Positions 41,421 through 59,189 of a stretch of DNA of 64,000 nt are shown in pieces. Origin of the DNA: Nitrospiria bacterium. GTDB lineage: Bacteria; Nitrospirota; Nitrospiria; JACQBZ01. The stretch's first letter is position 1. Every line of letters begins with the position of its first letter. Location of the stretch: positions 1 through 64,000 of the forward strand of contig DATKAN010000016.1 in assembly GCA_035498035.1 (NCBI GenBank). The letters are read 5' to 3'. Position numbers and translations under genes: made by a program. The notes beneath the pieces were generated by a model, which saw only the letters and a list, made by a program, of their open reading frames with translations, searched no databases and was not told the DNA's origin.

Positions 41421-41916
41421 GGCGAGCCCCTTTCCGGACGGGTTCCACGCCGAGCGCCCGGAGTTCCTCCGCCAGGACCTCGACCACGCGCGGAAGGGCG
41501 TCCAGGAGTTCGGGGGTGAGGTCCGGTCCGACGCTGTGAGCCTCCTTCGGCTGAACCGCGACGATCCGGGTCGGGGGAAGTTTTCCAAGAAACCGGGCGA
41601 TCGACAGCAGGTCCGCGACGCCCATTTCGTGGGCCGAAAAGACGCCTTCCCGGCGTTCGGGCAGCTCCTCCGGAGAAAGACGGGCGATGGCCCCCGGTGG
41701 CTTTTTCCCGTCCGCGGCGTCCACAATCAGGATATTTCCGGCCCCTTCGAATTCGGACAGGCAGCGAAGACCGGCAACCCCTCCCTCCACCAGTCGGACC
41801 CGGGGCGGAAGTTCATAGGTCTCGGCCAACGTTCGAACGGCGCGAACGCCGATGCCGTCGTCCTGCATCATCGTGTTGCCCACGCCCAGTACGACGATGA
41901 AAGGGGCGCCCGTCAT
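41413..41916 (-). CDS. Hydrogenase maturation protease (HyaD/HybD/HycI family)
   Basis: A 167-residue endopeptidase that trims the large-subunit C-terminus once nickel is in place. It shows VVLGVGNTMMQDDGIGVRAV (D20 in place of the usual acidic nickel ligand), D66 in LIVDAADG and H96 in SAHEMGV, the three metal-sensing positions of the family. It is coupled to nicotinate phosphoribosyltransferase upstream (ATGA) and hypA downstream. Its target here is presumably the alpha subunit at 25819-27108. Confidence 0.92.
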   Translation of the reverse strand: MTGAPFIVVLGVGNTMMQDDGIGVRAVRTLAETYELPPRVRLVEGGVAGLRCLSEFEGAGNILIVDAADGKKPPGAIARLSPEELPERREGVFSAHEMGVADLLSIARFLGKLPPTRIVAVQPKEAHSVGPDLTPELLDALPRVVEVLAEELRALGVEPVRKGARHA

Positions 41917-43265
41917 CGGGCCCGCTCGCGACGCGTCTCGGCGTCCACCTTGTGGGCCAGGGCCGTCAGGGCTTCCGCAATCTTTACGGGATAAGGCGGA
42001 ACCTCTTGAAGCCCGCGGAAGGGCTCGGGCAGGTGCGCCAGCTGGTCGGCGGCGTAGGCGCGCAATTCGGTCAGCGGAGCGGGCGGCTCAAGACGCCGGC
42101 CGGCGCTCATCACCGGATGGATCAACGGCTTCCCCTCCTCCGGGCGATCGTCGAGCGTGAGGAGGTCCTCGCGCATCCGGCCGTCCGGGCCGTAGCGCCG
42201 GAAAACCTGTTTCCGCCCGGGCCACGTGGCCTTTCCCTCCGAGCGCTTGCGCCGCGCGCGCCCGGCGTATTCTTCGAGCTTATAGGCACAATCCAGGTGC
42301 GGCGCGTCGGCCGACGTGACCAGGTCCGAACCGATTCCGTAACCGTCGATCGGGGCCGCGTTCTCGATCAGGCTCCGCAGGCGGGTCTCGCTCAGGTTTC
42401 CGCTGGCGAAGATCGTCACATCGGTCAGACCCCCGTTGTCCAGAATTCGGCGTACCTTCCGCGCATGGTCGCCCAGATCCCCGCTGTCGAGCCGCACGCC
42501 CTTTATCGCGATTCCTTCCGCCTTGAGCCGAGGGGCAAGCGCCACCGCCATCTCGGCCGCCGCCTCCGTGTCGTAGGTATCCAGCAAAAGCATCACGTTG
42601 TCGGGCTGGGCGCGGGCAAAATTGACGAAGGCCTCCTGTTCATCGTCATGGGCCTGGATAAAAGAATGGGCCATGGTCCCGTACGCCGGTATACCGAAGA
42701 GAAACTCCGCCAGGACGGTGGCCGACCCGGAAAATCCGGCGAGGTATGAGGCCCGCGCCGCCATCAACCCGGCCTCCGCGCCGTGGGCCCGCCGCAACCC
42801 GAAATCGACCAGGAGTTTTCCGGGCGCCGCCAGGACGAAGCGCGCCGCCTTGGAAGCGATCAGGGTCTGGAAGTGGAGAAGATTGATCAGGCGGGTTTCG
42901 ACCAATTGCGCCTGCGGAAGCGGCGCGGTCACCCGAAGCATCGGCTCATGCGGAAAGAAGAGGGTCCCTTCCGGCATGGCATGGACATCGCCGGTGAACC
43001 GGAACCGTTCAAGGTGGTCGACAAAGGACCGGCTGAAGCGGCCGCTCCGGGCCAGCCACTCCAGCTCCCGCGGGGTAAAATGAAGCCCCTCGATGTAATC
43101 CAGCGCCTGCTGAAGGCCGGCGGCCATCAGGAAGCCGCGGCCGGGCGGAAGCTTACGAACGAAGAACTCGAAGACGGCCGTCTCTTCCATTCCCCGGTCA
43201 AAGTAACCCTGGAGCATCGTGAGCTGGTAGAGGTCGGTGAGCAGGATGCTGGATTCGGACTCCAT
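41913..43265 (-). CDS. pncB: Nicotinate phosphoribosyltransferase
   Basis: A 450-residue enzyme joining nicotinate and PRPP to nicotinate mononucleotide in NAD salvage. LLTDLYQLTMLQGYF near the start, FRLGR-like segments (LLVDFGLRRAHGAEAGLMAA), GTMAHSFIQAH, LLLDTYDTEAA and GVRLDSGDLGDHA are diagnostic. ATG 43265 is preferred because GAGGA precedes it; ATG 43286 in the same frame is possible. It heads the hyp genes, an odd place for NAD salvage, but it consumes the PRPP that the prs gene in this block makes and NAD(P) is the hydrogenase substrate. Confidence 0.9.
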   Translation of the reverse strand: MESESSILLTDLYQLTMLQGYFDRGMEETAVFEFFVRKLPPGRGFLMAAGLQQALDYIEGLHFTPRELEWLARSGRFSRSFVDHLERFRFTGDVHAMPEGTLFFPHEPMLRVTAPLPQAQLVETRLINLLHFQTLIASKAARFVLAAPGKLLVDFGLRRAHGAEAGLMAARASYLAGFSGSATVLAEFLFGIPAYGTMAHSFIQAHDDEQEAFVNFARAQPDNVMLLLDTYDTEAAAEMAVALAPRLKAEGIAIKGVRLDSGDLGDHARKVRRILDNGGLTDVTIFASGNLSETRLRSLIENAAPIDGYGIGSDLVTSADAPHLDCAYKLEEYAGRARRKRSEGKATWPGRKQVFRRYGPDGRMREDLLTLDDRPEEGKPLIHPVMSAGRRLEPPAPLTELRAYAADQLAHLPEPFRGLQEVPPYPVKIAEALTALAHKVDAETRRERAR

Positions 43266-43368
43266 CGGGCGTTGATCCTCGGCCATGTGTGAAGGGACCC
43301 GATCGGCGGCGTTAAATACCCCGGCCTTGCAACCGGTCCTTGGCCCGCTGCACGGATTCAAGGCCGGA

Positions 43369-45822
43369 CTACTCCGTCAGGCTGTCGTCCGGCGGTTCCA
43401 GGCTCGAAACCCGGAGGGGGCGGGGCCGGTCGGGCTCCATCGCCCGCAATTTTTCATTCATATCGGTCAGGCGCCTCATGACCGCCGCGTTGATGGTTCC
43501 GTCCGGGTATTTCCCGTCCGCTTGCCGTTCACCGGCGGGATGACCGGTTAAGATCTCCATCGCCTCATCCACCGTCGAAGCCGCATACACGTGGAATTGG
43601 CCCGAGGCCACGGCCTCCACGACCCCGTCGTTCAACATCAGGTGCTTGAGGTTCCGGCTGGGAATGATCACGCCTTGGTCCCCCGTCAATCCCAGGGCTT
43701 TGCAGACGGAATAGAAACCTTCGATCTTTTCGTTCACGCCGCCGATCGCCTGAAGCTCGCCCCGCTGATTGACCGAGCCCGTGATCGCGATCCCCTGACG
43801 GAGGGGGATATCGGAAAGGGCGGACAGGAGGGCGATCACTTCGGCCGCCGAGGCGCTATCGCCCTCCACCTCGCCGTAGCTCTGCTCGAAGCAGAGGCTC
43901 GCGGAAAGCGACAGGGGAATTTCCCGGGCATACCGGCCGCCCAGATATCCCGAAAGGATCATCACGCCTTTGTTGTGCGTCCTACCTCCGAGCTTGGCCT
44001 CCCGCTCGATATTGACGATTCCGGAGGATCCCAAAAAGACCCGTGCGGTGATGCGGGAAGGACGTCCGAACGAGAAATCGCCCAGCTCATAAACGGACAG
44101 TCCGTTGACCTGACCCACGACGGTCCCGGAGAGATCCACCATGAGGGTTCCCTCCGTGATCAGCTCCCGGATCTGCTGTTCCAGCAGATTGGATCGATAA
44201 ATTTTTTCTTCCACGGCTTTCTGAACGTGTGGCCGTGAAACACGGGCGGCGCCCTCCGAATGGGCCCAGTGGCTCGACTCCCGGATCAAATCCGTGAGCT
44301 CGCTGAAACGGAGGGAGAGTTTTTTCTGATGATTTGCCCAGCGGGAGGTCTGCTCCAGGAGGGCTCCCACCGCGGTTCGATCGAAATGGAGAAGCCCCTC
44401 TTCCCGGCAAATCCGTCCGACGAAATGAGCGTACTGGAGGGGGGCGTCGGCGTCGCGGGGCCGATCCTGTTCGAAGTCGACCCTCACCTTATAAAGTTTT
44501 CCGAAATCCTCGTCATAGGCATGGAGCAGGTAATAGATCAACGGGTTTCCGATCAGGACTACCCGCAGATGCACCGGGATCGGCTCCGGCTTGATGCCGG
44601 CAGAGGCGATGACGCCGTAGAGTTCGGCAATATCCTCGATCTTGACCTCCCGGTTCTTGATCACCCGCTTGAGCGCGTCCCAGGTAAAGGGGCTCCGGAG
44701 CACATCCAACACGTTCAGAACAAGGAACCCGCCGTTGGCCTGAAGGAGAGAGCCGGCTTTAATGAGGGTAAAATCCGTGTAAAGGGTTCCCAAACGGCCT
44801 TTCTTTTCGATGCGGCCGATCAGGTTGTTGTACGTGGGATTCCCCTCCTCCACCAGGGGCGCGCCCCGAGTTCCGGCGTTGTCCACCACCACGTTGACCG
44901 CGTAACGGGTCATCGATTTCCGCGGGGACTCGATCTCCAGGCCGGGAATCCGAATCGGCGTCTCCTGCTCGGGAAGAAAATCCTTGAAGTTTTCCAGGAC
45001 ATCCTGTTGGACGGCCTGGATGTAGTCCATTACCTTGGGAAAGGCCCGATAATTCTTTCGCACGCTATCGAAGGCATGCTCGGAGGTGAAGTGCGCCGCC
45101 TGACGATCCAGCTCCGCGACCTTCCGGTGCATCTCTTCCCGCAGCGCGCGGAGTTGTTGAACGAAGGTGTGAATATGCTCGTGAAGATCCTTCTGCTTCC
45201 GTTCAATCTCGTCCCGGGTCCGGGCATCCAACGCTTCGAGTTGCTCGGGCTCTATCGGCTTCCCCCGGACGACCGGAACCACCGCCATCCCAAACGGGGT
45301 GCTCTTGATGATGAAGCCGTACTCCCGGGCCTGTTCCTCCAATTGATTCGTGAGGCTGTCACGGGCCTTGGAAAACGTTTCTTCCAATTGCCTCCGTTGA
45401 TCCTCGTACTCCTTGCTCTGGAACACCCGTGAGATCTCAACCTGGAGGGCCCCGATGAGGCGTTCCATGTCCCGCTGGAACTCCCGTCCTTTCCCCGCGG
45501 GCAGGCTCAACACTTTCGGACGATCCGGATCCTGAAAGTTATGGACATAGCACCAATCGTCCGGGGTGGGCTGCGTTTCGGCCACCCGTTTGATCATGGA
45601 CCTTACGATCGTATTCTTTCCCGTCCCCGGAACCCCGGAAACGTATATGTTGTAGCCCCGGTCCTCAATGTGCAGACCGAAGTCGATCGCTCGAACCGCC
45701 CTTTCCTGGCCGATCACGGCGTCTTGCGGGGCCAGTTCTTCCGTGGTCGTGAAGGTGAATTGATCCGGATCCATGCGGGCGCGGAGGGCTTCGGAAGATA
45801 TTTCCAGGCGGTTCAAGGTCAT
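43369..45822 (-). CDS. Lon-like ATP-dependent protease (AAA_32/LonB type)
   Basis: An 817-residue protease. Walker A is GVPGTGKNT (63-71); a long coiled-coil insertion spans about 140-300; the ATPase core resumes with NAGTRGAPLVEEGNPTYNNL; the C-terminal Lon proteolytic domain has catalytic Ser656 in EGDSASAAEV and Lys699 in GGVNEKIEGFY, with the 43-residue spacing seen in Lon. ATG 45822 follows a GAGAGA site and a good promoter. It stands first of the long minus-strand run ending in the hydrogenase. Confidence 0.92.
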   Translation of the reverse strand: MTLNRLEISSEALRARMDPDQFTFTTTEELAPQDAVIGQERAVRAIDFGLHIEDRGYNIYVSGVPGTGKNTIVRSMIKRVAETQPTPDDWCYVHNFQDPDRPKVLSLPAGKGREFQRDMERLIGALQVEISRVFQSKEYEDQRRQLEETFSKARDSLTNQLEEQAREYGFIIKSTPFGMAVVPVVRGKPIEPEQLEALDARTRDEIERKQKDLHEHIHTFVQQLRALREEMHRKVAELDRQAAHFTSEHAFDSVRKNYRAFPKVMDYIQAVQQDVLENFKDFLPEQETPIRIPGLEIESPRKSMTRYAVNVVVDNAGTRGAPLVEEGNPTYNNLIGRIEKKGRLGTLYTDFTLIKAGSLLQANGGFLVLNVLDVLRSPFTWDALKRVIKNREVKIEDIAELYGVIASAGIKPEPIPVHLRVVLIGNPLIYYLLHAYDEDFGKLYKVRVDFEQDRPRDADAPLQYAHFVGRICREEGLLHFDRTAVGALLEQTSRWANHQKKLSLRFSELTDLIRESSHWAHSEGAARVSRPHVQKAVEEKIYRSNLLEQQIRELITEGTLMVDLSGTVVGQVNGLSVYELGDFSFGRPSRITARVFLGSSGIVNIEREAKLGGRTHNKGVMILSGYLGGRYAREIPLSLSASLCFEQSYGEVEGDSASAAEVIALLSALSDIPLRQGIAITGSVNQRGELQAIGGVNEKIEGFYSVCKALGLTGDQGVIIPSRNLKHLMLNDGVVEAVASGQFHVYAASTVDEAMEILTGHPAGERQADGKYPDGTINAAVMRRLTDMNEKLRAMEPDRPRPLRVSSLEPPDDSLTE

Positions 45823-45854
45823 GGCTTCTCTCTCGTGATGGCCGTTGGAAGAGA

Positions 45855-45884
45855 ACTTTATCCGGTTTGCCGGTTCAATGTCAA
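45855..45884 (-). promoter_or_regulatory. Predicted sigma-70 promoter of the Lon-like gene
   Basis: On the minus strand TTGACA (45884-45879), 18 bases, TAAAGT (45860-45855), with about 26 bases to ATG 45822. It could also start the long hyp-hydrogenase transcript. Confidence 0.65.
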
Positions 45885-46460
45885 TGTCCGGGTCCGAAAA
45901 GTCCCACGCGGGAGGCACGGGAATAAAAAAACCGAACCCACCGGCTCTCGTGGAATTCGGTCAATAAAAAGAAGGCATCGTCCCAAACGCTCACCTTTCG
46001 TCCGTCGGCCCGAATACCGACCGGCCGGTTTGCTGCGATCCTTGGGGGCTGTCGCTGCATTCCCATCCCGGTTTTCTCCGGTCCCGTTACGCACCCAACG
46101 GTGCTGCGGACACGTCGAACGTCGACAGGCTTTCTTCGGGGCGGTGCCATTGACCGCGATGCCGTTTTCTGATTGTTGAACCTGAGGCGTTTCTACGAAG
46201 TGGGTGCTCTTTTTTGCCCCCCTCCGTCTCCGACAGGAAAGGGGGAAGGCTCCCCTTCTTCAACTGTTCCCAAAGGTCAACCAATCGTCACTAACACCGC
46301 AGTCCTATTCTTTTTTTCAAAGAGCATCTCCTTTATCCAACTATATAATACGCCTATGAAGGAACAAATGTCAACTCACACGATATTTCAACCTATTGAT
46401 AATACATGAATATACTCAAATAATTTTCATGAACATTTTTTTATTATTAACCCTGGGGTA
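45885..46460. other. Intergenic stretch without a recognised gene
   Basis: About 575 bases between the cytochrome c gene and the Lon promoter. The left part has the local base composition; 46260-46450 is clearly AT-rich (for example ACTATATAATACG near 46340). Short open frames lack ribosome binding sites and recognisable products. No terminator hairpin is seen after the cytochrome stop. Confidence 0.5.
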
Positions 46461-46835
46461 TCAGCTCTTATCCTTCTCGACGCCTTGGCTCAGCGCCCGC
46501 ACATAGGACAACACATCAAGAAATTGCTGTTCCGAGAGCGTTCCTTTCCATGCCGTCATCGCGGTATCCGGATGGCCCTCGCGAATGGCCTTCAGCAGAT
46601 CGGCGTCGGGTTTGCGTCGGCTCTCCGGACTGGCGAAGTTCGGCGCGGGCGGGTTCAGCGACTTTCCCATCGGTCCGTCTCCACGGCCCTGCGGACCGTG
46701 ACAGATCAGACAGTTCTTTTCATAGATCGGTCTCCCCTTCGATGCATCGCCGTCAATCCCGGATGCGGGAAGGATCCAAATTCCAAGCCCCAAGATCAGA
46801 ACGGCGAACAAGATACCGCGAATATTGGACAACAT
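46461..46835 (-). CDS. Class I c-type cytochrome
   Basis: A 124-residue exported monohaem cytochrome. The N-terminal segment ILFAVLILGLGIWIL is a signal/anchor, the haem motif is C42-LI-C45-H46 and the distal ligand is probably Met93 in TAMTAWKGTL; YVRALSQ closes the fold. It resembles small diffusible electron carriers for terminal oxidases. It starts 76 bases after the HPF-like gene, at the end of the stress operon, and has a clear GGAGG site. Confidence 0.88.
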   Translation of the reverse strand: MLSNIRGILFAVLILGLGIWILPASGIDGDASKGRPIYEKNCLICHGPQGRGDGPMGKSLNPPAPNFASPESRRKPDADLLKAIREGHPDTAMTAWKGTLSEQQFLDVLSYVRALSQGVEKDKS

Positions 46836-46911
46836 GATTTATTTCCTCCCTGGCGTATGAAGTCGAGCTCCCGCTTGGCCCCAACCGCGATACGGGTCCA
46901 TCCGTTCGGGA

Positions 46912-47472
46912 TCAGGTCTGGGCTTCTCGACCGCGACGAGCCCGAATCATTTCGACGGTGCTCGCCTGGGGACCTTTTTCTCCCAACTCTTCAACAAACC
47001 GCACTTCCATTCCGATCTTCATCCGGTCGAAGGCATCTTTCAGGACGCTGTTTCGATGAAAATAGATTTCCTGGCCGTCCGGCGCCTCGAGGAACCCATA
47101 CCCCTCCTGCGGAAACAGCTTGCTCACGCGGGCGCGCGTTGCGGACTGGTGGATTTTCACGTCCCCGCGAAGCCGTCGCTCATAATCCTCCAGCTTTCGG
47201 CGAGCCGCGTCGAAGGCGTCTCGAACCGCCACGTAGATATCCTCGTGGGGATGGTGTTTGACCACCAGTTCGGAGCCGTGGACGGTCAGATCGATTTGCA
47301 CTTTATAAAGCATGCCTTGGTGTTGATGCCGGTGGGGATTGTCCACCGTCACCCGACAGCCGATGATGTGATCGGAATATTGATCCAGCTTGGACGCTTT
47401 CTCGCGGATTTCGTTATTAACCGACTCGGATATCGAGGCGTTGCGTACCGTAATCTGAAGTGGAATTTTCAT
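46912..47472 (-). CDS. HPF/RaiA-type ribosome hibernation factor fused to a cold-shock domain
   Basis: A 186-residue protein. Residues about 1-105 are HPF/RaiA-like (PLQITVRNASISESVNNEIR, YKVQIDLTVHG, DIYVAVRDAFDAARRKLEDY), which binds the 30S decoding region of idle ribosomes. Residues about 118-180 form a cold-shock fold (ARVSKLFPQEGYGFLEAPDG, IYFHRNSVL, VRFVEELGEKGPQA) in place of the usual long-HPF dimerisation domain. GGGGGA precedes ATG 47472. It lies 12 bases after the OsmC gene. Confidence 0.88.
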   Translation of the reverse strand: MKIPLQITVRNASISESVNNEIREKASKLDQYSDHIIGCRVTVDNPHRHQHQGMLYKVQIDLTVHGSELVVKHHPHEDIYVAVRDAFDAARRKLEDYERRLRGDVKIHQSATRARVSKLFPQEGYGFLEAPDGQEIYFHRNSVLKDAFDRMKIGMEVRFVEELGEKGPQASTVEMIRARRGREAQT

Positions 47473-47483
47473 CACGCTCCCCC

Positions 47484-47930
47484 TTAATTTTCCCATTTCC
47501 TTGTTTTCGAAGATTCGTTGATCACGACCGAAACCTTGGGAGGATCCGCCAAAGATCGATGGATGGTGCAGCTCTCCAGGACCTTTTGAAGGCGAAGCTT
47601 CATCGCCGCCTCCAGCGGAACCGGGAGATCGACATACGCGATCATGGCCCCGACGCGGTGAGGACCCTCGGCATAGTCCCATTGCGTCCTCACCCTCAGT
47701 CCGTCCGTCGGGATTTTGTGGCGCTGGCAGAAACGCACGGCAAAATACCCGATGCAGCCCCCCAGGGAGGCGACGAACATCTCAACCGGCGTGACCCCAC
47801 GATCCTCCCCGCCTTCCTCCCTCGGCTGATCCAGCATGAGGGTATGGTTCCGAACCTGCACGGTCAGCCGAACACCCCCGACCCAGGAAACGATCAACGA
47901 CTCTTTCTTCAAATCGACCGGTCCTGACAT
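47484..47930 (-). CDS. OsmC-family protein
   Basis: A 148-residue protein of the OsmC/Ohr family, thiol peroxidases that reduce organic peroxides with paired cysteines. One cysteine is in ASLGGCIGYFAVRF and the second in VLESCTIHRSL, the expected positions; DQPREEGGEDRGVTPVEMF is the conserved opening of the domain. It sits between a Usp and an HPF gene in the stress operon, with 31 bases from the Usp stop. Confidence 0.88.
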   Translation of the reverse strand: MSGPVDLKKESLIVSWVGGVRLTVQVRNHTLMLDQPREEGGEDRGVTPVEMFVASLGGCIGYFAVRFCQRHKIPTDGLRVRTQWDYAEGPHRVGAMIAYVDLPVPLEAAMKLRLQKVLESCTIHRSLADPPKVSVVINESSKTRKWEN

Positions 47931-47960
47931 GGTGTTCCACCCCCGGCGAACGGACTTCCG

Positions 47961-48443
47961 TTAAGAGCCTTTCCCTTCTTTTTTGCCCGCCAGCGCCTTC
48001 GGCTTTACCGTAAACACGGGACAGGCGGCCTTTCGCACAACCCGCTCCGCCACGCTCCCCATCAGGACATGTCCCAGTCCCGTGCGCCCGTGCGTTCCGA
48101 GCACGATCATATCGGCCGGAATCTCACCCGCGGTATGGAGAATCTCGAGAAACGGAGTACCCTCCTTCAAGATGGCATGAACTTTTGGCCCCTGATGCCG
48201 GACCCGATCCGCCAGTTTGTTAAGATTTTCATGCTCCGCTTCCCTGACCTCCTGGATCCACTCATGGATTTCCGGCCGAACACCGGGAGACACGCCCGTA
48301 TGGCTGAAAAAAGGCGGTTCGAACACATGAAGCAGATATAAATCCGCGCCGAAGCCCCGCGCCAGATGCACGGCATACTCCAAGGCCTCATTGGAATAAT
48401 CCGAAAAATCGGTCGCCATCAAGATCCGATGAAGTTCGATCAT
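47961..48443 (-). CDS. Universal stress protein, UspA family
   Basis: A 160-residue single-domain Usp: IELHRILMATDFSDYSNEAL opens the fold and GTHGRTGLGHVLMGSVAERV gives the ATP-binding loop (GxxGx9GS), followed by CPVFTVKPK. It begins 35 bases after the P-type ATPase, repeating the ATPase-Usp pairing at 22299-25621. It is expected to respond to energy or oxygen stress; its partner protein is unknown. Confidence 0.92.
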   Translation of the reverse strand: MIELHRILMATDFSDYSNEALEYAVHLARGFGADLYLLHVFEPPFFSHTGVSPGVRPEIHEWIQEVREAEHENLNKLADRVRHQGPKVHAILKEGTPFLEILHTAGEIPADMIVLGTHGRTGLGHVLMGSVAERVVRKAACPVFTVKPKALAGKKEGKGS

Positions 48444-48478
48444 GGTTTTCCCCCCGAGGCTTTTTCAATAAGTCCGAT

Positions 48479-51187
48479 TTAAAGACGGATTCGGGCGGGT
48501 TGCCCGATCCGCCCCCGATAACGATACCATTTTTCTCCCTCCAAAACCAGATAAACGGTCAGGGCCACGCCCAGGCACAGGGCCAGTTCTCCCATCGTCA
48601 ACGCCGTGGTGTGAAAGAACGGCTGCAGGGCGGGGCTGTAGGTGATGGCCAGTTGAAGAACGACGATCACGACCACCGCGCTGACCAGTTTCGGGTTCGA
48701 AAACAAACCGATCGTCCACAGCGCGTTCCGCTCCGAGCGCATGGCCAGCACGCTGAACATCTGAAAAATCGTGAGGACGAAAAAAGCGGCCGTACGCCCG
48801 TGCCCGAGACCCTGCCCGGCCTGAACCCATGCCAATATGCCGAGGGTCCCCGCCCCGGTGATCAAACCCACCCACACAATCTGGGGACCCAGACCCCCGG
48901 TGAACAGGCCCTCCTCCGGATCCCTCGGCGGTCTTTTCATGACATCCCGCTCCGCCGGCTCCACGCCCAGCGCCAGGGCCGGAAGTCCGTCCGTCATGAG
49001 GTTGATCCAGAGAATCTGGACCGGAAGCAACGGGAGCGGCAGGCCGAACAGAATCGCGAAGAACATCGTCATGATCTCGCCGCTGTTGGTGGACAATATA
49101 TACCGGGTGAATTTCCGGATGTTGTCGTAGATGATCCGTCCCTCCTTGACGGCGGAGACAATTGTAGCAAAATTGTCATCCAAAAGCACCATGTCGGAGG
49201 CTTCGCGGGCGGCGTCCGTGCCCCCCCGCCCCATCGCCACGCCGATATCGGCCATCCGCAGGGCCGGGGCGTCGTTCACGCCGTCGCCGGTCATCGCCAC
49301 GACTTCCCCCCTCCTCTTGAGGGCCTGGAGGATCTTTACCTTCTGGTCGGGCGAGACCCGGGCGTATACGGAAACATTGGAAACCAACGGCGCCAAGTCT
49401 TCGGGGGACATGGACTCCAGGTCCTCTCCGGTCAGGACACGATCGTTGGGACCCTGGATTTTCAGATGCCTCGCGACGCTTTCGGCCGTCACACGATGAT
49501 CCCCCGTAATCATGATCGGCCGGATCCCGGCCTCGCGGCAATTCGCCACGGCGGCCAGGACCTCCGGCCGGGGGGGATCCATCATTCCGACCAAACCCAG
49601 GAAGACCATCTCTTCCTCCACATCCTTTAAATTCTCCTCGGAGGGCTCGGTTTCCAAGCCGCGCATCGCGCACGCGAGGATCCGGACGCCGTCCGCGGCC
49701 AGCTCACGGTGGACCTGCACGATTCGATCATGATGACGACGGGTCAGAGGCCTGCGGACCCCGCCTTCCGTGACCGAGACGGCCCGCCGGAGAATTTCTT
49801 CGATGCCTCCTTTGCTGAAGGCGAACAGGCGGCCGGATGGATCCCGGTGGACCGTCGTCATGAGCTTTCGATTTGAATCAAAGGGTTTTTCGGCGATGCG
49901 CGGATATTCCGCCTCAAGCCGGTCCTTCCAGAAACCGGCCTTCGCGGCCGCCGCCAACAGGGCCCCCTCCGTCGGATCTCCCAAAATGATCCAGAGATTC
50001 TCCCGCCGCTCCAGACGGGCGTTGCTGCAAAGGGCGGCGGCCCGGAGCAGCTGAAGAAGCGCCGGTTCGTTTACGGGGTCCAGCCTCTGTCCTTTTTCCT
50101 GAAAATTACCCTCCGGGGCATAATCCGTGCCGGTGATGTTCACCAGGCGCCCTTCGAAATAAACCATCTCGACCGACATGACATTCTGGGTCAAGGTCCC
50201 GGTCTTGTCGGAGCAGATCGCGGTGACGGAGCCCAGCGTTTCCACGGCGGGCAGCTTCCGGATCAGCGCATTGCGGCGGGCCATGGCCTGCGCTCCGATC
50301 GCCAGAACGATCGTCACGACGGCCGGGAGCCCCTCCGGGATCACCGCCACGGCCAGACTGATCGCGGTCAAGAGCATCGTCTCCGTCGGTTCTCCCCGAA
50401 GGAGACCGGCGATGAAAATGACCGCCGTCATGGCCACAGCCGCGCCGGCCAGCCATTTTCCGAGATGGGCCAAACGGAGTTGAAGCGGCGTCTTGCGGTC
50501 TTCCACCCTCTGGAGAAGGCGGGCGATCTTCCCGAGTTCGGTTCCCATCCCCGTTTCGGTCACGACGGCCCAGGCATGGCCCGCGACCACCGATGTACCC
50601 ATAAATACCAAGTTGAGCCGATCCCCCACGGAAAGATCTTTCTTGTGGAGGACCCGGGGGTGCTTGGCGACGGCGACGGACTCCCCGGTCAAATGCGACT
50701 CGTTCAACCTCAATTGCACCGCCTCGATAATCCTCCCGTCGGCCGGAATCCTCTGGCCTTCGTTCAAGGCGATGAGATCTCCCGGAACCAGGTCCCGGGA
50801 TGAAATCTCTTGAAGGGTTCCCCCGCGCCGGACCACCACTTGGGGACGCTCAAGCTTCTTTAAGACATTCAGGGCCCGCTCGGCGCGGTACTCCTGAGCG
50901 AATCCCAGGGAGGCGTTCAACCCGACAATGACAAGAATCATCACCGCATCGGAGATGTCTCCCATCCAAACGGCGATCAGGGCGGCGGCGAAAAGGATGA
51001 GGATCATCACATCCTTCAACTGCCTGGAGAGAATGGGCCAGACGGTCTTCCGGTCCTCTTCCTTTAATTGATTGGACCCGTACTCCCCCAGCCGCCGCTT
51101 CGCTTCGGCAACGGATAAGCCCGCCCGGGAACTGTCCAAGACCCGGAGAACCTCCTCCGCCTCCATCTGGAACCACGGCCGGGCCAT
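48479..51187 (-). CDS. P2A-type (calcium-like) cation-transporting ATPase
   Basis: A 902-residue P-type ATPase: N-terminal cation ATPase domain (WFQMEAEEVLRVL), TGES, M4 motif IPEGLPAVVTIVLA (the PEGLP form of SERCA/PMR1 calcium pumps), phosphorylated D327 in [35 protein letters not shown], and SGEIMTMFFAILFGLPLPLLPVQILWINLMTDG in M5-M6 (Asn and Asp typical of calcium sites). A TTG at 51190 precedes ATG 51187 directly. It follows the zinc-ribbon gene without a gap. Confidence 0.92.
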   Translation of the reverse strand: MARPWFQMEAEEVLRVLDSSRAGLSVAEAKRRLGEYGSNQLKEEDRKTVWPILSRQLKDVMILILFAAALIAVWMGDISDAVMILVIVGLNASLGFAQEYRAERALNVLKKLERPQVVVRRGGTLQEISSRDLVPGDLIALNEGQRIPADGRIIEAVQLRLNESHLTGESVAVAKHPRVLHKKDLSVGDRLNLVFMGTSVVAGHAWAVVTETGMGTELGKIARLLQRVEDRKTPLQLRLAHLGKWLAGAAVAMTAVIFIAGLLRGEPTETMLLTAISLAVAVIPEGLPAVVTIVLAIGAQAMARRNALIRKLPAVETLGSVTAICSDKTGTLTQNVMSVEMVYFEGRLVNITGTDYAPEGNFQEKGQRLDPVNEPALLQLLRAAALCSNARLERRENLWIILGDPTEGALLAAAAKAGFWKDRLEAEYPRIAEKPFDSNRKLMTTVHRDPSGRLFAFSKGGIEEILRRAVSVTEGGVRRPLTRRHHDRIVQVHRELAADGVRILACAMRGLETEPSEENLKDVEEEMVFLGLVGMMDPPRPEVLAAVANCREAGIRPIMITGDHRVTAESVARHLKIQGPNDRVLTGEDLESMSPEDLAPLVSNVSVYARVSPDQKVKILQALKRRGEVVAMTGDGVNDAPALRMADIGVAMGRGGTDAAREASDMVLLDDNFATIVSAVKEGRIIYDNIRKFTRYILSTNSGEIMTMFFAILFGLPLPLLPVQILWINLMTDGLPALALGVEPAERDVMKRPPRDPEEGLFTGGLGPQIVWVGLITGAGTLGILAWVQAGQGLGHGRTAAFFVLTIFQMFSVLAMRSERNALWTIGLFSNPKLVSAVVVIVVLQLAITYSPALQPFFHTTALTMGELALCLGVALTVYLVLEGEKWYRYRGRIGQPARIRL

Positions 51188-51190
51188 CAA

Positions 51191-51397
51191 TCAGCGTTTT
51201 CCTCTCGTTTTCCCGACGGAAACCGTCTCGAGGTCCCTGGCCTCCTTGCGGTTCAGAAGAATCAGGGGATCGACGATTTCCCCGCAATAGACGCAATGCC
51301 ATCCCTCATAGGACCACGGCCCCCCTTCGCTCTCGACATTGACGAACTCCTCAAAGTTCATCTGCCCGCCGCATTTCGGACATTTCATCTTGATCAT
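51191..51397 (-). CDS. Small zinc-ribbon protein
   Basis: A 68-residue protein with two CxxC pairs (CPKCGG near the start, CVYCGE near residue 37), expected to bind one zinc, and a basic C-terminal tail. The segment between has acidic and aromatic residues (ESEGGPWSYEGWHC). It ends just before the P-type ATPase start and is probably co-translated. Function unknown; such ribbons are frequent in stress operons of this sort. Confidence 0.72.
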   Translation of the reverse strand: MIKMKCPKCGGQMNFEEFVNVESEGGPWSYEGWHCVYCGEIVDPLILLNRKEARDLETVSVGKTRGKR

Positions 51398-51413
51398 CCC
51401 CTTCCTGTTTTGT

Positions 51414-51492
51414 GGGGGCTCATCTCGCCGCCTCCGTCCGCCTGGGGCGGCCTTCCCCTCGTGCTCTCCGCCTCCGGCGGATTGCTCGCTGG
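51414..51492 (-). repeat. Minus-strand copy of dispersed repeat family A
   Basis: Read on the minus strand it opens CCAGCGAGCAATCCGCCGG and closes GGCGGCGAGATGAGCCCC, the end sequences of the copies at 12116 and 25627, with a different interior. It separates the Hsp20 and zinc-ribbon genes inside the stress operon. Confidence 0.65.
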
Positions 51493-51507
51493 TAATATCC
51501 CCCCCGT

Positions 51508-51996
51508 TTACTCCACCTTGATCTTTACTTCTTTCCGCTTGGCCTCCTCCGTCTTGGGCAAGCGCACCTCCAATACCCCGTCCTTGAAATTGGCATAGGC
51601 CTTATCGGCCTTCACCTCTTTGGGCAGGTCAATCGTCCGCACGAAACTCCCGTATGAGCGTTCGGAATAATAATACCCTTTCTTTTTAACCTCTTCTTCC
51701 TGTTTCTTCTCACCCTTGATGGTGAGAAGGGTGTCGGAAATATTGATATCCAACTCCTCCTTTTTCATCCCGGGTATCTCGGCCTTGACCACGACGTCGT
51801 CCTTCTCTTCGTATATCTCGATCGCCGGTTCTCGGATCCCGATCTCCCGAAAGCGGTCGGGCCAGTTTAAGCCCCAAAAAGGTCTCCGGAAGAAATCGCC
51901 GAACATGCGCTCGGCCTCCCGCTCCATGCGGCTCAACTCCGTAAAAGGTCTCCAGGGTGTCACCTCCCGCGTCTCTTTCTCTTTTTCCTTCGACAT
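51508..51996 (-). CDS. Hsp20/alpha-crystallin small heat-shock protein
   Basis: A 162-residue ATP-independent chaperone. ATG 51996 follows AAGGAAGGAGG. A charged N-terminus and a PF-W-containing segment (MFGDFFRRPFWGLNWP) precede the alpha-crystallin domain (about 55-150: EPAIEIYEEKDDVVVKAEIP, ISDTLLTIKGEKK, SYGSFVRTIDLPKEV, YANFKDGVLEVRLPK). It lacks a clear C-terminal IxI. It lies in the sigma-54-linked operon between the BCAM0308-family and zinc-ribbon genes. Confidence 0.94.
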   Translation of the reverse strand: MSKEKEKETREVTPWRPFTELSRMEREAERMFGDFFRRPFWGLNWPDRFREIGIREPAIEIYEEKDDVVVKAEIPGMKKEELDINISDTLLTIKGEKKQEEEVKKKGYYYSERSYGSFVRTIDLPKEVKADKAYANFKDGVLEVRLPKTEEAKRKEVKIKVE

Positions 51997-52045
51997 GGCC
52001 GAACCTCCTTCCTTTGTGATAACCATCCAAGGGATGAATGGTCTC

Positions 52046-52534
52046 TTATCGTTCACGTCCCCGATGCCACTTCACCCGGATGAATTTATCATCCCGGGAC
52101 CAATGGTACGTGACATCGCCTTTGTAAGCCCGGTGGATTTCCATACTGACCCGTTGGGCAAAGCGTTCGCTGGTGGTCTGGATCTCCACGGATTTCAGAT
52201 TATCCTTGATCGAAATAATACGCTCGAGGGGATTGACCCTTTTGGCCCGGGCTTCTTCGTTCCGAACCAGGTTCAGAATCTCTTCCCGGTTGGGGGCCAA
52301 GAACTCTCCGCTCAACGTGATGATCCCGCCCGGAAAAGAATCCCGCTTCTTTTGACAGGCCGGACACGTAATGGAACGGGTCTTACGATTTCTGGTCGTG
52401 GCCGGAAGAATTTGCATGGACCAGCGCTTGTGATGAAACACCGCCCCGCAGCTTCGGCAAACGGCCGCTTCCTTCGGTCCCATCAGCGGCAGGTAGGGAT
52501 CCCGATGGACCGGAAGATTTTTTCGAATCGGCAT
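52046..52534 (-). CDS. BCAM0308-family protein
   Basis: A 162-residue protein with two CxxC motifs (CRSCGAVFHHKRW and CPACQKKRDSFPGG), then ITLSGEFLAPNREEILNLVRNEEARA and a C-terminal domain (IQTTSERFAQRVSMEIHRAY, DDKFIRVKW). This matches the family named after BCAM0308 of the low-oxygen-activated locus of Burkholderia cenocepacia. It looks like a zinc-ribbon plus RNA-binding-type fold, function unproven. It follows the YbaK-like gene by 15 bases. Confidence 0.82.
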   Translation of the reverse strand: MPIRKNLPVHRDPYLPLMGPKEAAVCRSCGAVFHHKRWSMQILPATTRNRKTRSITCPACQKKRDSFPGGIITLSGEFLAPNREEILNLVRNEEARAKRVNPLERIISIKDNLKSVEIQTTSERFAQRVSMEIHRAYKGDVTYHWSRDDKFIRVKWHRGRER

Positions 52535-52549
52535 GGCCCCCTCCCTTTA

Positions 52550-53134
52550 TCAAAACCCGCCGGCTCTTTTCGCCGGATCCATGGCGAAGCGATCCCTTAA
52601 CGGGTGAACAAGCCGTTCAAAATCCGAATACCGCATCGCAATCATCTCGTGATGCGTTCCCGATTGAAAGAAAATCTCCGGTTCGAGGGCGAGAGATTCA
52701 TCCACAAAGACCCGGAACTCGTAGAGGGTGCCGAATGGCGGGATGGCCCCCAACTCGCAGTCCGGAAAAAGTTTTTCCAAAACCGCTTCCGTTGCCAGAG
52801 ACACTTGAGCCGCCCCGATCACTTCCGAAAACCGGTCGAGATCAAGCTGACGGTGAGCCGGAAGGACCGCCATGACATACCGGCCGTCGGCCAAAACCAT
52901 CACCGCCTTGGCCACTTTCCGTCCGGAGGTATGGATCGAGGCCGCCAGTTCGGGCGCCGTATAAACCTCGGCGTGTGGGATCACCCGGTACGGAACCTTC
53001 TCCGTCTCGAAAAGCATCTTCAGCCGTTCGGGAGCCGTCGGCCACCCGGAGCGCTCCCTTTTTTTCCCAATCCCCTTGTAGCCTCTCCACCATTCCCTCA
53101 GCTTCATCGCGCTTTTCATCTCAAATGGGAGCAT
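52550..53134 (-). CDS. YbaK/EbsC-family aminoacyl-tRNA deacylase-like protein
   Basis: A 194-residue protein; ATG 53134 has an excellent AGGAGGTG site. After a basic lead of about 35 residues comes the YbaK domain: YRVIPHAEVYTAPELAASIH, GRKVAKAVMVLADGRYVMAV (substrate-site Lys), PDCELGAIPPFGTLYEFRVF and FQSGTHHEMIAMRYSDFERL. The family hydrolyses mischarged tRNAs such as Cys-tRNA(Pro). Its place in a stress operon suggests proofreading under stress. 47 bases separate it from the CBS gene. Confidence 0.87.
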   Translation of the reverse strand: MLPFEMKSAMKLREWWRGYKGIGKKRERSGWPTAPERLKMLFETEKVPYRVIPHAEVYTAPELAASIHTSGRKVAKAVMVLADGRYVMAVLPAHRQLDLDRFSEVIGAAQVSLATEAVLEKLFPDCELGAIPPFGTLYEFRVFVDESLALEPEIFFQSGTHHEMIAMRYSDFERLVHPLRDRFAMDPAKRAGGF

Positions 53135-53181
53135 GACACACCTCCTGACGGGAACCCTTCTCCCACCGCCTCTTGAATTCT

Positions 53182-53619
53182 TCAAGGCCAATATTGGGCG
53201 GTGGACTTGATGAAGCCGAAGAGGATGTCCCGCCGCGCGACGATCCCCACCAGTTTACCGTCCCGGACGACCGGCACCCGGATCAGGTGATCCGCCTCCA
53301 GCAGCCGGATGATCTCGTCCACCGAGGTGTCTTCACGGACAAATTTGACGTCCCGCGTCATGATCTCCTCCGCCCGTACGTCTTTGGGATCCCGGTCCTT
53401 CATGAGGATGCCGAGCAGATCGAATTCGCTTACCAGCCCCACCAGCATTCCTCCGTTCTCCACAACCGGAAGGCTGCCGAAGTTATGTTTGGTCAGCTCG
53501 GAGGCGATGTGCCGGGCCGAATCGGAGGGCCTGCAAAACTTGACGTCCTGCTCCATCAGCAACGAAGCCGGCAGTTTATGAAAATCACGCTTTTCGGTCA
53601 AATATTCTGTGCGTCTCAT
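53182..53619 (-). CDS. Twin CBS-domain protein, first gene of the sigma-54 operon
   Basis: A 145-residue protein made of two CBS motifs (about 20-80: VKFCRPSDSARHIASEL, FGSLPVVENGGMLVGLVSEFDLL; about 85-140: VREDTSVDEIIRLLEADHLI, VPVVRDGKLVGIVARRDIL). CBS pairs bind adenine nucleotides and report energy charge. ATG 53619 follows AGAGGAGGG. A consensus sigma-54 promoter lies 57 bases upstream with two palindromes behind it; open frame beyond this start is not coding. Confidence 0.9.
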   Translation of the reverse strand: MRRTEYLTEKRDFHKLPASLLMEQDVKFCRPSDSARHIASELTKHNFGSLPVVENGGMLVGLVSEFDLLGILMKDRDPKDVRAEEIMTRDVKFVREDTSVDEIIRLLEADHLIRVPVVRDGKLVGIVARRDILFGFIKSTAQYWP

Positions 53620-53675
53620 GACGAACCCTCCTCTTGTATAGCGTTCAAATTTCTCCTCCCCTGTCAATATTTTTA

Positions 53676-53691
53676 AGCAAAGGCCGTGCCA
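53676..53691 (-). promoter_or_regulatory. Consensus sigma-54 promoter of the CBS/stress operon
   Basis: On the minus strand TGGCACGGCCTTTGCT matches the TGGCACG-N4-TTGCW consensus at every position, with GG at -24 and GC at -12. Transcription would begin near 53665, about 46 bases before the CBS ATG. Confidence 0.9.
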
Positions 53692-53805: not shown

Positions 53806-53823
53806 TGTCCAATGGGCTGGACA
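53806..53823. promoter_or_regulatory. Proximal enhancer-like palindrome TGTCCA-N6-TGGACA
   Basis: TGTCCA (53806-53811) and TGGACA (53818-53823) form a perfect inverted repeat, centred about 137 bp upstream of the -12 element of the sigma-54 promoter. It lies between the activator gene and its presumed target. Confidence 0.78.
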
Positions 53824-53873
53824 AGAAAAAAGATTATAAGATTTTTTCCGTCGGATTTTCAAACGGCTTCTGA

Positions 53874-53891
53874 TGTCCATAGAAATGGACA
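53874..53891. promoter_or_regulatory. Distal enhancer-like palindrome TGTCCA-N6-TGGACA
   Basis: A second perfect copy of the motif (53874-53879 and 53886-53891), extended to ATGTCCAT/ATGGACAT. Its centre is 68 bp from the first copy and about 205 bp from the -12 element. Confidence 0.78.
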
Positions 53892-56918: not shown

Positions 56919-56947
56919 ATCCTATTCCCAGGGAATTCCATTGTCAA
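56919..56947 (-). promoter_or_regulatory. Predicted sigma-70 promoter of the histidine kinase operon
   Basis: On the minus strand TTGACA (56947-56942), 17 bases, TAGGAT (56924-56919), with about 20 bases to the ATG at 56891. It would supply kinase and NtrC-type regulator independently of the sigma-54 promoter upstream of the receiver gene. Confidence 0.6.
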
Positions 56948-57352: not shown

Positions 57353-57418
57353 GGTTCCGTTTACCTCCGGAGACCTTTTCTTTTGAGTTGTCAAAATTTC
57401 TTTGATAACTTACAAGAA

Positions 57419-57434
57419 AGCAAGACACGTGCCA
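57419..57434 (-). promoter_or_regulatory. Consensus sigma-54 promoter of the receiver gene
   Basis: On the minus strand TGGCACGTGTCTTGCT fits TGGCACG-N4-TTGCW exactly. The expected start near 57408 leaves a leader of about 56 bases. No TGTCCA-N6-TGGACA palindrome is seen in the 100 bases behind it. Confidence 0.88.
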
Positions 57435-57521
57435 TGGACTCCGTTTTTGACGAAGATATATTAATCTGAATTTGAAGGACCGTGGAACAGGGGCTGGAGT
57501 TCGGGCGGTTCAACTGTTATA

Positions 57522-59189
57522 ATGGGCACGACACGGAGAAAATCGATTCCCACACTTCACGGACATCTCACCGGACTCAAGGCCGGACAAACCCGACGCC
57601 TGGAGCATCTATACCGCCGCCGAATCCCCCCCGACAAGGTTGTGACACAGGAGCTCGCACGCGCGCTGACCGAACTGTCCCGCGAGATCGGGCGGCAGAT
57701 CGGTCTGATCATCACCCGACGGGGGGAAATCTACGCCGTGATCGTGGGCGACGACCGCGAGATATTGATCCCGGACCTGTCCAAGTTCCGCGCCGGCCGG
57801 TTCAGGCTTCGGGGCGTCCGCTGCCTCCACACCCATCTCGACGACTCGCCCCTGACCCAGGACGACTTCACCGACTTGGCCCTGCTCCGGCTGGACCTCA
57901 TGGCCGCGATCGGCGTACAGGAAAACGGGCTTCCCGGCCATTGTTATCTCGCCCACCTCCTCCCCCCCAACCCGGAGGGCAAGACCTGGGAGGTTCATCC
58001 GCCCATCTGGACCCATCAGTTGAACCTGGATTGCCAGTCCTTCGTAAATACGATTGAGGAGGAACTGGCCCGGCACCAGACCGCGTATGACGTCAAGGAC
58101 ACGCGGGAGCGGGCGATCCTGGCCAGCGCATCCACGCAGAGCCGGCTCGATCAGGAGGAATCGATGGAGGAATTGGCCGAGCTGGCGCGAACGGATCGGC
58201 TCATAGTCGTGGACACCGTGACCCAACGGCCCAAGACGCTCCATCCGAAATATCTCATGGGGGAGGGAAAGATCAAGGAGCTGATCATGAAGGCCTATCA
58301 GCAAGGGGCCGACCTGCTCGTCTTCGACCAGAACCTCACCCCGCTCCAGACCAAGGCGATCGGCGAGATCACGGAGATGAAGGTGATCGACCGGACCCAA
58401 TTAATCCTGGACATCTTCGCGCGACGCGCGCACAGCCGGGACGGAAAGGTCCAGGTCGAGCTGGCCCAGTTGAAATACCGCCTTCCCCGCCTGTCGGAGC
58501 GGAGCACGGCGCTCTCGAGGCTGACCGGAGGCATCGGAGGACGCGGACCGGGCGAGACGAGGCTGGAAGTGGACCGACGGCGCGCGCGGGACCGGATCAG
58601 CCGCCTGGAGAAGGAACTTCAAACGCTCAGCCGCGCGAGGACGGAGCGGCGGACCTTGCGGGTGAAGAGCGGGGTCCCGATCGTCTCGATCGTGGGATAT
58701 ACCAATGCGGGAAAGTCGACGCTGTTGAACGCCCTGACCCGCAGCGAGGTGCTGACGGACGACCTGCTGTTCGCCACGCTGGACACCGCCAGCCGCCGGC
58801 TGCGCTTCCCCCGCGAACGGGAAGTGATCATCACCGACACGGTCGGCTTCATCCGCGAGCTGCCGGAGGACTTGATGGGCGCCTTCGCGCCGACGCTGGA
58901 CGAGCTGCGGGACGCCCATCTGCTTCTCCACGTCGTGGACATCGGCAATCCCCGCTTCGAGGAGCAGATCGAGGCCGTCGTGAAACTGTTGACGCGGCTC
59001 GGGCTGGATCAAATTCCCCGGCTGGTGGTGTTCAATAAAGAAGACCGGGTCGATCCGCAGATGGTCAAAGACGTCTGCCAGCGCTTTCAGGCCGTCTCGA
59101 TCTCGGCGCTTCATCCCGAGACGCTGCCCAAACTTCTGGCGGTTCTCGAAGACCGGGTCTTCCGGTCAGGACAGGAGGCCCGCTCATGA
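57522..59189 (+). CDS. hflX: GTPase HflX
   Basis: A 555-residue ribosome-associated GTPase that splits stalled or heat-damaged 70S ribosomes. The N-terminal ~170 residues form an extension (RGVRCLHTHLDDSPLTQDDF) found in longer HflX proteins. Then the HflX domain (TLHPKYLMGEGKIKEL, DRTQLILDIFARRAHS, GGIGGRGPGETRLE) and the G domain (GYTNAGKSTL, DTVGFIRELP, NKED). The ATG at 57522 overlaps a TATAAT sequence and has no Shine-Dalgarno; no better in-frame start follows. Confidence 0.94.
   Translation: MGTTRRKSIPTLHGHLTGLKAGQTRRLEHLYRRRIPPDKVVTQELARALTELSREIGRQIGLIITRRGEIYAVIVGDDREILIPDLSKFRAGRFRLRGVRCLHTHLDDSPLTQDDFTDLALLRLDLMAAIGVQENGLPGHCYLAHLLPPNPEGKTWEVHPPIWTHQLNLDCQSFVNTIEEELARHQTAYDVKDTRERAILASASTQSRLDQEESMEELAELARTDRLIVVDTVTQRPKTLHPKYLMGEGKIKELIMKAYQQGADLLVFDQNLTPLQTKAIGEITEMKVIDRTQLILDIFARRAHSRDGKVQVELAQLKYRLPRLSERSTALSRLTGGIGGRGPGETRLEVDRRRARDRISRLEKELQTLSRARTERRTLRVKSGVPIVSIVGYTNAGKSTLLNALTRSEVLTDDLLFATLDTASRRLRFPREREVIITDTVGFIRELPEDLMGAFAPTLDELRDAHLLLHVVDIGNPRFEEQIEAVVKLLTRLGLDQIPRLVVFNKEDRVDPQMVKDVCQRFQAVSISALHPETLPKLLAVLEDRVFRSGQEARS

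Follow-up and report, generated by a model that had tools for sequence, protein, structure and literature searches.

The stretch of DNA analysed here (the window; 64,000 nucleotides) raises the question of how a strongly conserved sigma-54 promoter can work without activator sites nearby and, with it, the question of an on-demand receiver that would damp its own pathway. The promoter precedes an orphan CheY-like receiver gene, which is followed by genes for a histidine kinase and an NtrC-type response regulator (Table 1). A preliminary description of the locus had recognised both this promoter and a separate sigma-70 promoter for basal expression of the kinase and activator, and both proposals have held up.

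The sequence TGGCACGTGTCTTGCT, read on the minus strand from 57434 to 57419, matches TGGCACG-N4-TTGCW with 0 mismatches and carries the GG at -24 and the GC at -12 of the TGGCAC-N5-TTGC-type consensus. Its -12 GC lies ~69 bp 5' of the receiver ATG (57352), a start that is backed by the relatives, and from the position of the site a transcript start is predicted near 57408. With up to one mismatch allowed, the window contains 2 matches to the motif versus 0.25 expected, a number reached in 3 of 100 shuffles; the second perfect site is the promoter of the target operon discussed below. Across the whole genome (2.67 Mb in 67 contigs), the motif with 1 mismatch allowed occurs 41 times versus 88 for the reversed control, and because it is not enriched, a consensus match alone is weak proof. 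The promoter is judged real on the conservation of the block. In four genomes, our own and the relatives G001, G002, and G003 (those close relatives that are named are Nitrospirae MAGs from groundwater), the site is invariant at 13 of its 16 columns compared with 22 of 187 elsewhere in the spacer between hflX and the receiver gene. This spacer is otherwise ~12% invariant and has lost nearly all similarity, leaving the site as its only strongly conserved block. A hand estimate from the counts, which takes columns as independent, puts the chance of such conservation at ~1e-9. In another family, represented by G010, G015, and G019, a sigma-54 matrix trained on other promoters, namely those beside activator sites, finds a strong site before the orthologous receiver in G019 (TGGCATATAAATTGCT) and G010 (AGGCATGTCATTTGCA), each with P <0.01 per 200-bp window, and only a weak one in G015 (AGGCACTCATCTTGCA; P ~0.2 per 200-bp window), which points to selection on a site ahead of the same gene. 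The genome encodes one rpoN and ~17 sigma-54 activators. As far as sequence can settle it, these comparisons confirm 57419-57434 as a genuine sigma-54 promoter, evolutionarily kept in related Nitrospirota.

Table 1. Features of the receiver locus and the adjoining gene series (positions are those of the window).
Feature	Position	Strand	Basis
hflX, divergently oriented neighbour, presumably outside the circuit	57522-59189	plus	NCBIfam TIGR03156, 430 bits
Sigma-54 (-24/-12) promoter of receiver gene, TGGCACGTGTCTTGCT	57419-57434	minus	Exact consensus match and conservation
Single-domain CheY-like receiver, 122 aa	56984-57352	minus	Pfam Response_reg, 103 bits
Sigma-70-type basal promoter of kinase and activator, TTGACA-N17-TAGGAT	56919-56947	minus	Sequence and conservation
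PAS-PAS histidine kinase, 534 aa	55287-56891	minus	Pfam PAS, HisKA, HATPase_c
NtrC-type response regulator (receiver, sigma-54 AAA+, Fis HTH), 458 aa	53914-55290	minus	Pfam Sigma54_activat (245 bits), Response_reg, HTH_8
Distal activator site (putative), TGTCCATTTCTATGGACA	53874-53891		Paired sites, conserved distance, four genomes
Proximal activator site (putative), TGTCCAGCCCATTGGACA	53806-53823		Paired sites, conserved distance, four genomes
Sigma-54 promoter of target operon, TGGCACGGCCTTTGCT	53676-53691	minus	Perfect match; conserved in four genomes
CBS-domain protein, first gene of target operon	53182-53619	minus	Pfam CBS
Aminoacyl-tRNA editing domain protein	52550-53134	minus	Pfam tRNA_edit
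BCAM0308 (lxa) family protein	52046-52534	minus	NCBIfam NF040826, 156 bits (cut-off 100)
Hsp20 small heat-shock protein	51508-52056	minus	Pfam HSP20
P-type ATPase	48479-51190	minus	Name from reading the sequence
Universal stress protein	47961-48443	minus	Name from reading the sequence
Hibernation-factor-like protein	near 46912-47600	minus	Name from reading the sequence
Lon-like protease	43369-45918	minus	Name from reading the sequence
Nicotinate-phosphoribosyltransferase-like gene	41913-43361	minus	Name from reading the sequence

The basal promoter of the kinase and activator genes is kept in all seven genomes, including G001 to G003, with minor changes in G010, G019, and G015. Orthologs of the activator are likewise found in all seven, with identities of 68-84% in six genomes where the next best protein reaches ~51%. 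The activator scores below the cut-off of each family model to which it was compared, whether NtrC (452.2 bits, cut-off 558.6), the PEP-CTERM response regulator PrsR (434.2 bits, cut-off 502.6), or AtoC (470 bits, cut-off 714). Elsewhere in the same genome, a sigma-54-like site lies ~140 bp before another activator gene (L023; G000:C28:2084-2099) and suggests autoregulation.

A likely binding site of the linked activator can be defined as TGTCYA-N6-TRGACA, and the window carries a pair of such palindromes of the form TGTCCA-N6-TGGACA. The linked activator probably binds these sites, as they adjoin its gene and the two are present in the same genomes. A search for distant copies of the palindrome had been proposed earlier; carried out as a plain pattern search of eight genomes, it returns 1-4 occurrences per genome, whereas the reversed control gives 0-1. 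Of 40 high-scoring distinct activator sites in the DNA analysed, 29 lie 60-260 bp from a sigma-54 match, compared with 6.7% of random positions, a figure that is optimistic because the matrix was partly built from sites beside sigma-54 promoters. The sites are mostly paired, 65-69 bp apart (about 66), and sit 125-250 bp upstream of their target sigma-54 promoters, at distances of ~130 and 197 or 146 and 215 with few exceptions. A sigma-54 DosR-like regulon was sought in the literature and none was found.

Activator sites are usually located 100-250 bp upstream of sigma-54 promoters, but this is not obligatory. Judged on the sites of the linked activator in seven genomes, the receiver promoter lacks them at this distance, and over a stretch that begins 600 bp upstream and takes in the first 100 bp of the receiver gene, none of the seven has an activator site above threshold. 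This agrees with the preliminary description, which saw no matching palindrome close to the promoter. Its further suggestion that enhancers might lie inside hflX has lost ground, as hflX has neither a scoring site nor a clear excess of codon conservation, and the receiver keeps its site beside other upstream neighbours, which vary between the divergent hflX, corC, and a reductase-like gene. Within the first 15 codons of hflX, 7/9 codons are identical, against ~42% over the part of the gene that four genomes cover; as a sign of an enhancer this is suggestive at best, and translation-start signals explain it equally. Also set aside were TGTCCG at -131 to -166 in hflX, a half-site standing alone with the wrong spacing, and the palindrome-like TGTCCAAAAT..TTGGA 55 bp inside the receiver gene, which is coding and scores 4.6 to 5.8 (-2.2 in G002) when the weakest training site of the activator matrix scores 13.2. 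Conserved among the relatives is an extended -10-like element, TGTTATAAT, that overlaps the annotated hflX ATG (window 57515-57545). Since G003 no longer has this ATG, hflX may actually start at another position.

A pair of activator sites is found downstream of the receiver promoter, at 0.6-3.6 kb in all seven genomes. The distance is ~3.1-3.6 kb with the kinase and activator genes in between, and ~0.6-0.7 kb in G015, where the receiver lies on contig C5 beside a unit made up of the sites and an oxidase gene and the kinase and activator are on C7. From this arrangement, it is the activator's sites that the receiver accompanies, and not obligatorily the kinase and activator genes. The linkage agrees with a shared enhancer lying downstream, and an NtrC enhancer has been documented to act from up to 15 kb (PMC4641369). 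It is no proof of one, because the sites serve the neighbouring target promoter and linkage would be expected anyway. We suggest only tentatively that one site pair serves both the adjacent target promoter and, from 0.6-3.6 kb downstream, the promoter of a feedback receiver in a sigma-54 low-oxygen/dormancy regulon.

The receiver has no output domain and retains its phosphoacceptor Asp, as phosphate-sink single-domain receivers do. Residues D10, D54, and K104 are invariant in the seven orthologs, and in G003 the acidic pocket carries an N in place of D11. Set against 24 activator receivers, the seven form one clade with a support of 100/100, and a phylum-wide search found no orthologs beyond the two families among the genomes sampled. 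Helix 1 is a main kinase-recognition surface of receivers. When 24 activator receivers are compared, helix 1 of the receiver comes closest, in all seven genomes, to that of an ortholog of the linked activator; the set is small, and only two of its members come from our own genome. In G010 and G019 the likeness is modest. Over the whole domain, the best match is often another protein than the ortholog of the linked activator. We propose that the receiver and activator share one kinase as phosphate donor, in which case on-demand synthesis of the receiver would attenuate the signal or send it along a branch.

The best reading of the locus is that of an inducible receiver arm, acting as feedback or as a phosphate sink, in a sigma-54 two-component system with a low-oxygen/dormancy-type regulon. 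We put at about one in two the probability that the promoter serves to bring the orphan receiver, upon induction, into the adjacent two-component system by way of the following circuit. Basal amounts of kinase and activator would be supplied from their own sigma-70 promoter (56947-56919). Once the kinase is active, phosphorylated activator would occupy the paired TGTCCA-N6-TGGACA sites (53806-53891) and from there fire the target promoter at 53691. The same sites, ~3.5 kb downstream of the receiver promoter, would fire that promoter too, most likely by looping, and the receiver, with a first helix like that of the activator, would take phosphate from the same kinase and thereby serve as the feedback or sink arm. 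Read-through from the receiver into the kinase and activator genes may be a side effect. Counting against this circuit are the weak site in G015, the modest helix 1 likeness in G010 and G019, the small comparison set, and the D11N change in G003.

Alternatively, an activator other than the linked one, with its gene at another place in the genome, might fire the sigma-54 promoter, with the receiver bringing a second signal to the kinase/activator pair. Such an activator could be one of the many others in the genome, and the upstream absence of the linked activator's site in seven genomes would be accounted for. However, beyond the site itself only a few bases directly 5' of -24 are conserved in the spacer, which has no further conserved palindrome or block, and a search of the genome for a motif in this flank common to its other sigma-54-like sites found none. 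We regard this alternative as possible but rather doubtful. Far harder to sustain is the view that the match does not function as a promoter at all, having arisen by chance or as the site of another protein. The missing genome-wide enrichment and the missing upstream activator site would fit, but neither chance nor an unrelated site sits easily with 13 of 16 invariant columns in so diverged a spacer, or with the same position being held before orthologous receivers that have different upstream neighbours, and we give this view hardly any weight.

The preliminary description had seen in the gene arrangement a feed-forward loop, in which the promoter mainly raises the kinase and activator by read-through. 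Positive autoregulation of this kind would resemble that of enterobacterial glnALG, the layout of which is a known precedent. Gene order is the same in six of the seven genomes, and no terminator-like site was found between the receiver and the kinase, so read-through itself stands as a possibility. As a conserved purpose it is weakened, because each of the seven genomes has a strong promoter of its own for the kinase and activator and because in G015 the receiver has kept company with the activator's sites while being unlinked from the two genes. Read-through is thus probably not what keeps the arrangement, and we consider it improbable as the main role of the promoter.

We hypothesize that the gene set at 41913-53691, which is predicted to be under a sigma-54 promoter, is of a low-oxygen/dormancy type and controlled by oxygen; some target gene names were taken from reading the translation. 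Hydrogenase-maturation-type genes come after this minus-strand series. In addition to the CBS operon, putative targets of the activator include a phosphoribosyltransferase in our own genome (contig C31), G006, and G010, the BCAM0308 gene itself in G010, G015, and G019, and an Hsp20-like gene and a CBS gene in G010. A ~1650-aa multicopper-oxidase-like protein encoded beside the module is a putative target in G010, G015, and G019. In this other family, the module is kept and the target swapped, with the multicopper-oxidase-like gene in place of the CBS operon (L083, 7924-12831; L085, 6497-11431, reverse; L084). The phosphoribosyltransferase (L086, 5077-5981, G000:C31) is the second putative target in our own genome and has a sigma-54 site and an activator-site pair upstream. 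A similar combination precedes a hydrogenase-type operon in G002 (L189, C30, 4832-4978), ~10 kb downstream of the CBS promoter. Our own genome also has a second BCAM0308-family gene (L166, G000:C52, 4512-4955) without a recognisable activator site.

Little was found in the literature on sigma-54 circuits of Nitrospirota, and the term 'nitrospir' is absent from a broad sigma-54 survey (PMC12316311). The motif match noted at the outset has become a conserved regulatory module in Nitrospirota, with a defined activator-type site and target set.

Among known systems, enterobacterial glnALG combines the sigma-54 promoter glnAp2, an internal sigma-70-type glnL promoter, and NtrB/NtrC. The present locus is alike in its sigma-54 promoter before the first gene, its separate basal promoter for kinase and activator, and its possible read-through. 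It differs in that the first gene encodes a receiver and not glutamine synthetase, in that the promoter of this gene has no upstream activator sites, and in that the activator falls below the NtrC model cut-off. The target set resembles the DosR dormancy regulon of Mycobacterium. There is also a likeness to the low-oxygen-activated locus (lxa) described in Burkholderia cenocepacia (PMC3759415), as the targets here include the BCAM0308 family, Hsp20, CBS, universal stress protein, and phosphoribosyltransferase; the link of the BCAM0308 family to lxa is given by the NCBIfam name of NF040826. Unlike lxa and DosR, control here is predicted to lie with sigma-54 and an NtrC-type activator. Conserved sigma-54 sites without a found activator site (UAS) have a parallel in Desulfovibrio vulgaris, in which 23 sigma-54 operons are of this kind and distant or downstream sites have been proposed (PMC4641369). 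In contrast to those cases, the putative site of the linked activator is defined here, and it lies downstream in every genome examined. Lastly, single-domain receivers such as MrrA are described as phosphate sinks or hubs (PMC5964349). The receiver is similar in standing alone, in its phosphoacceptor residues, and in its predicted association with a kinase, but unlike MrrA-type receivers it belongs to an NtrC-type module and is preceded there by a sigma-54 promoter.
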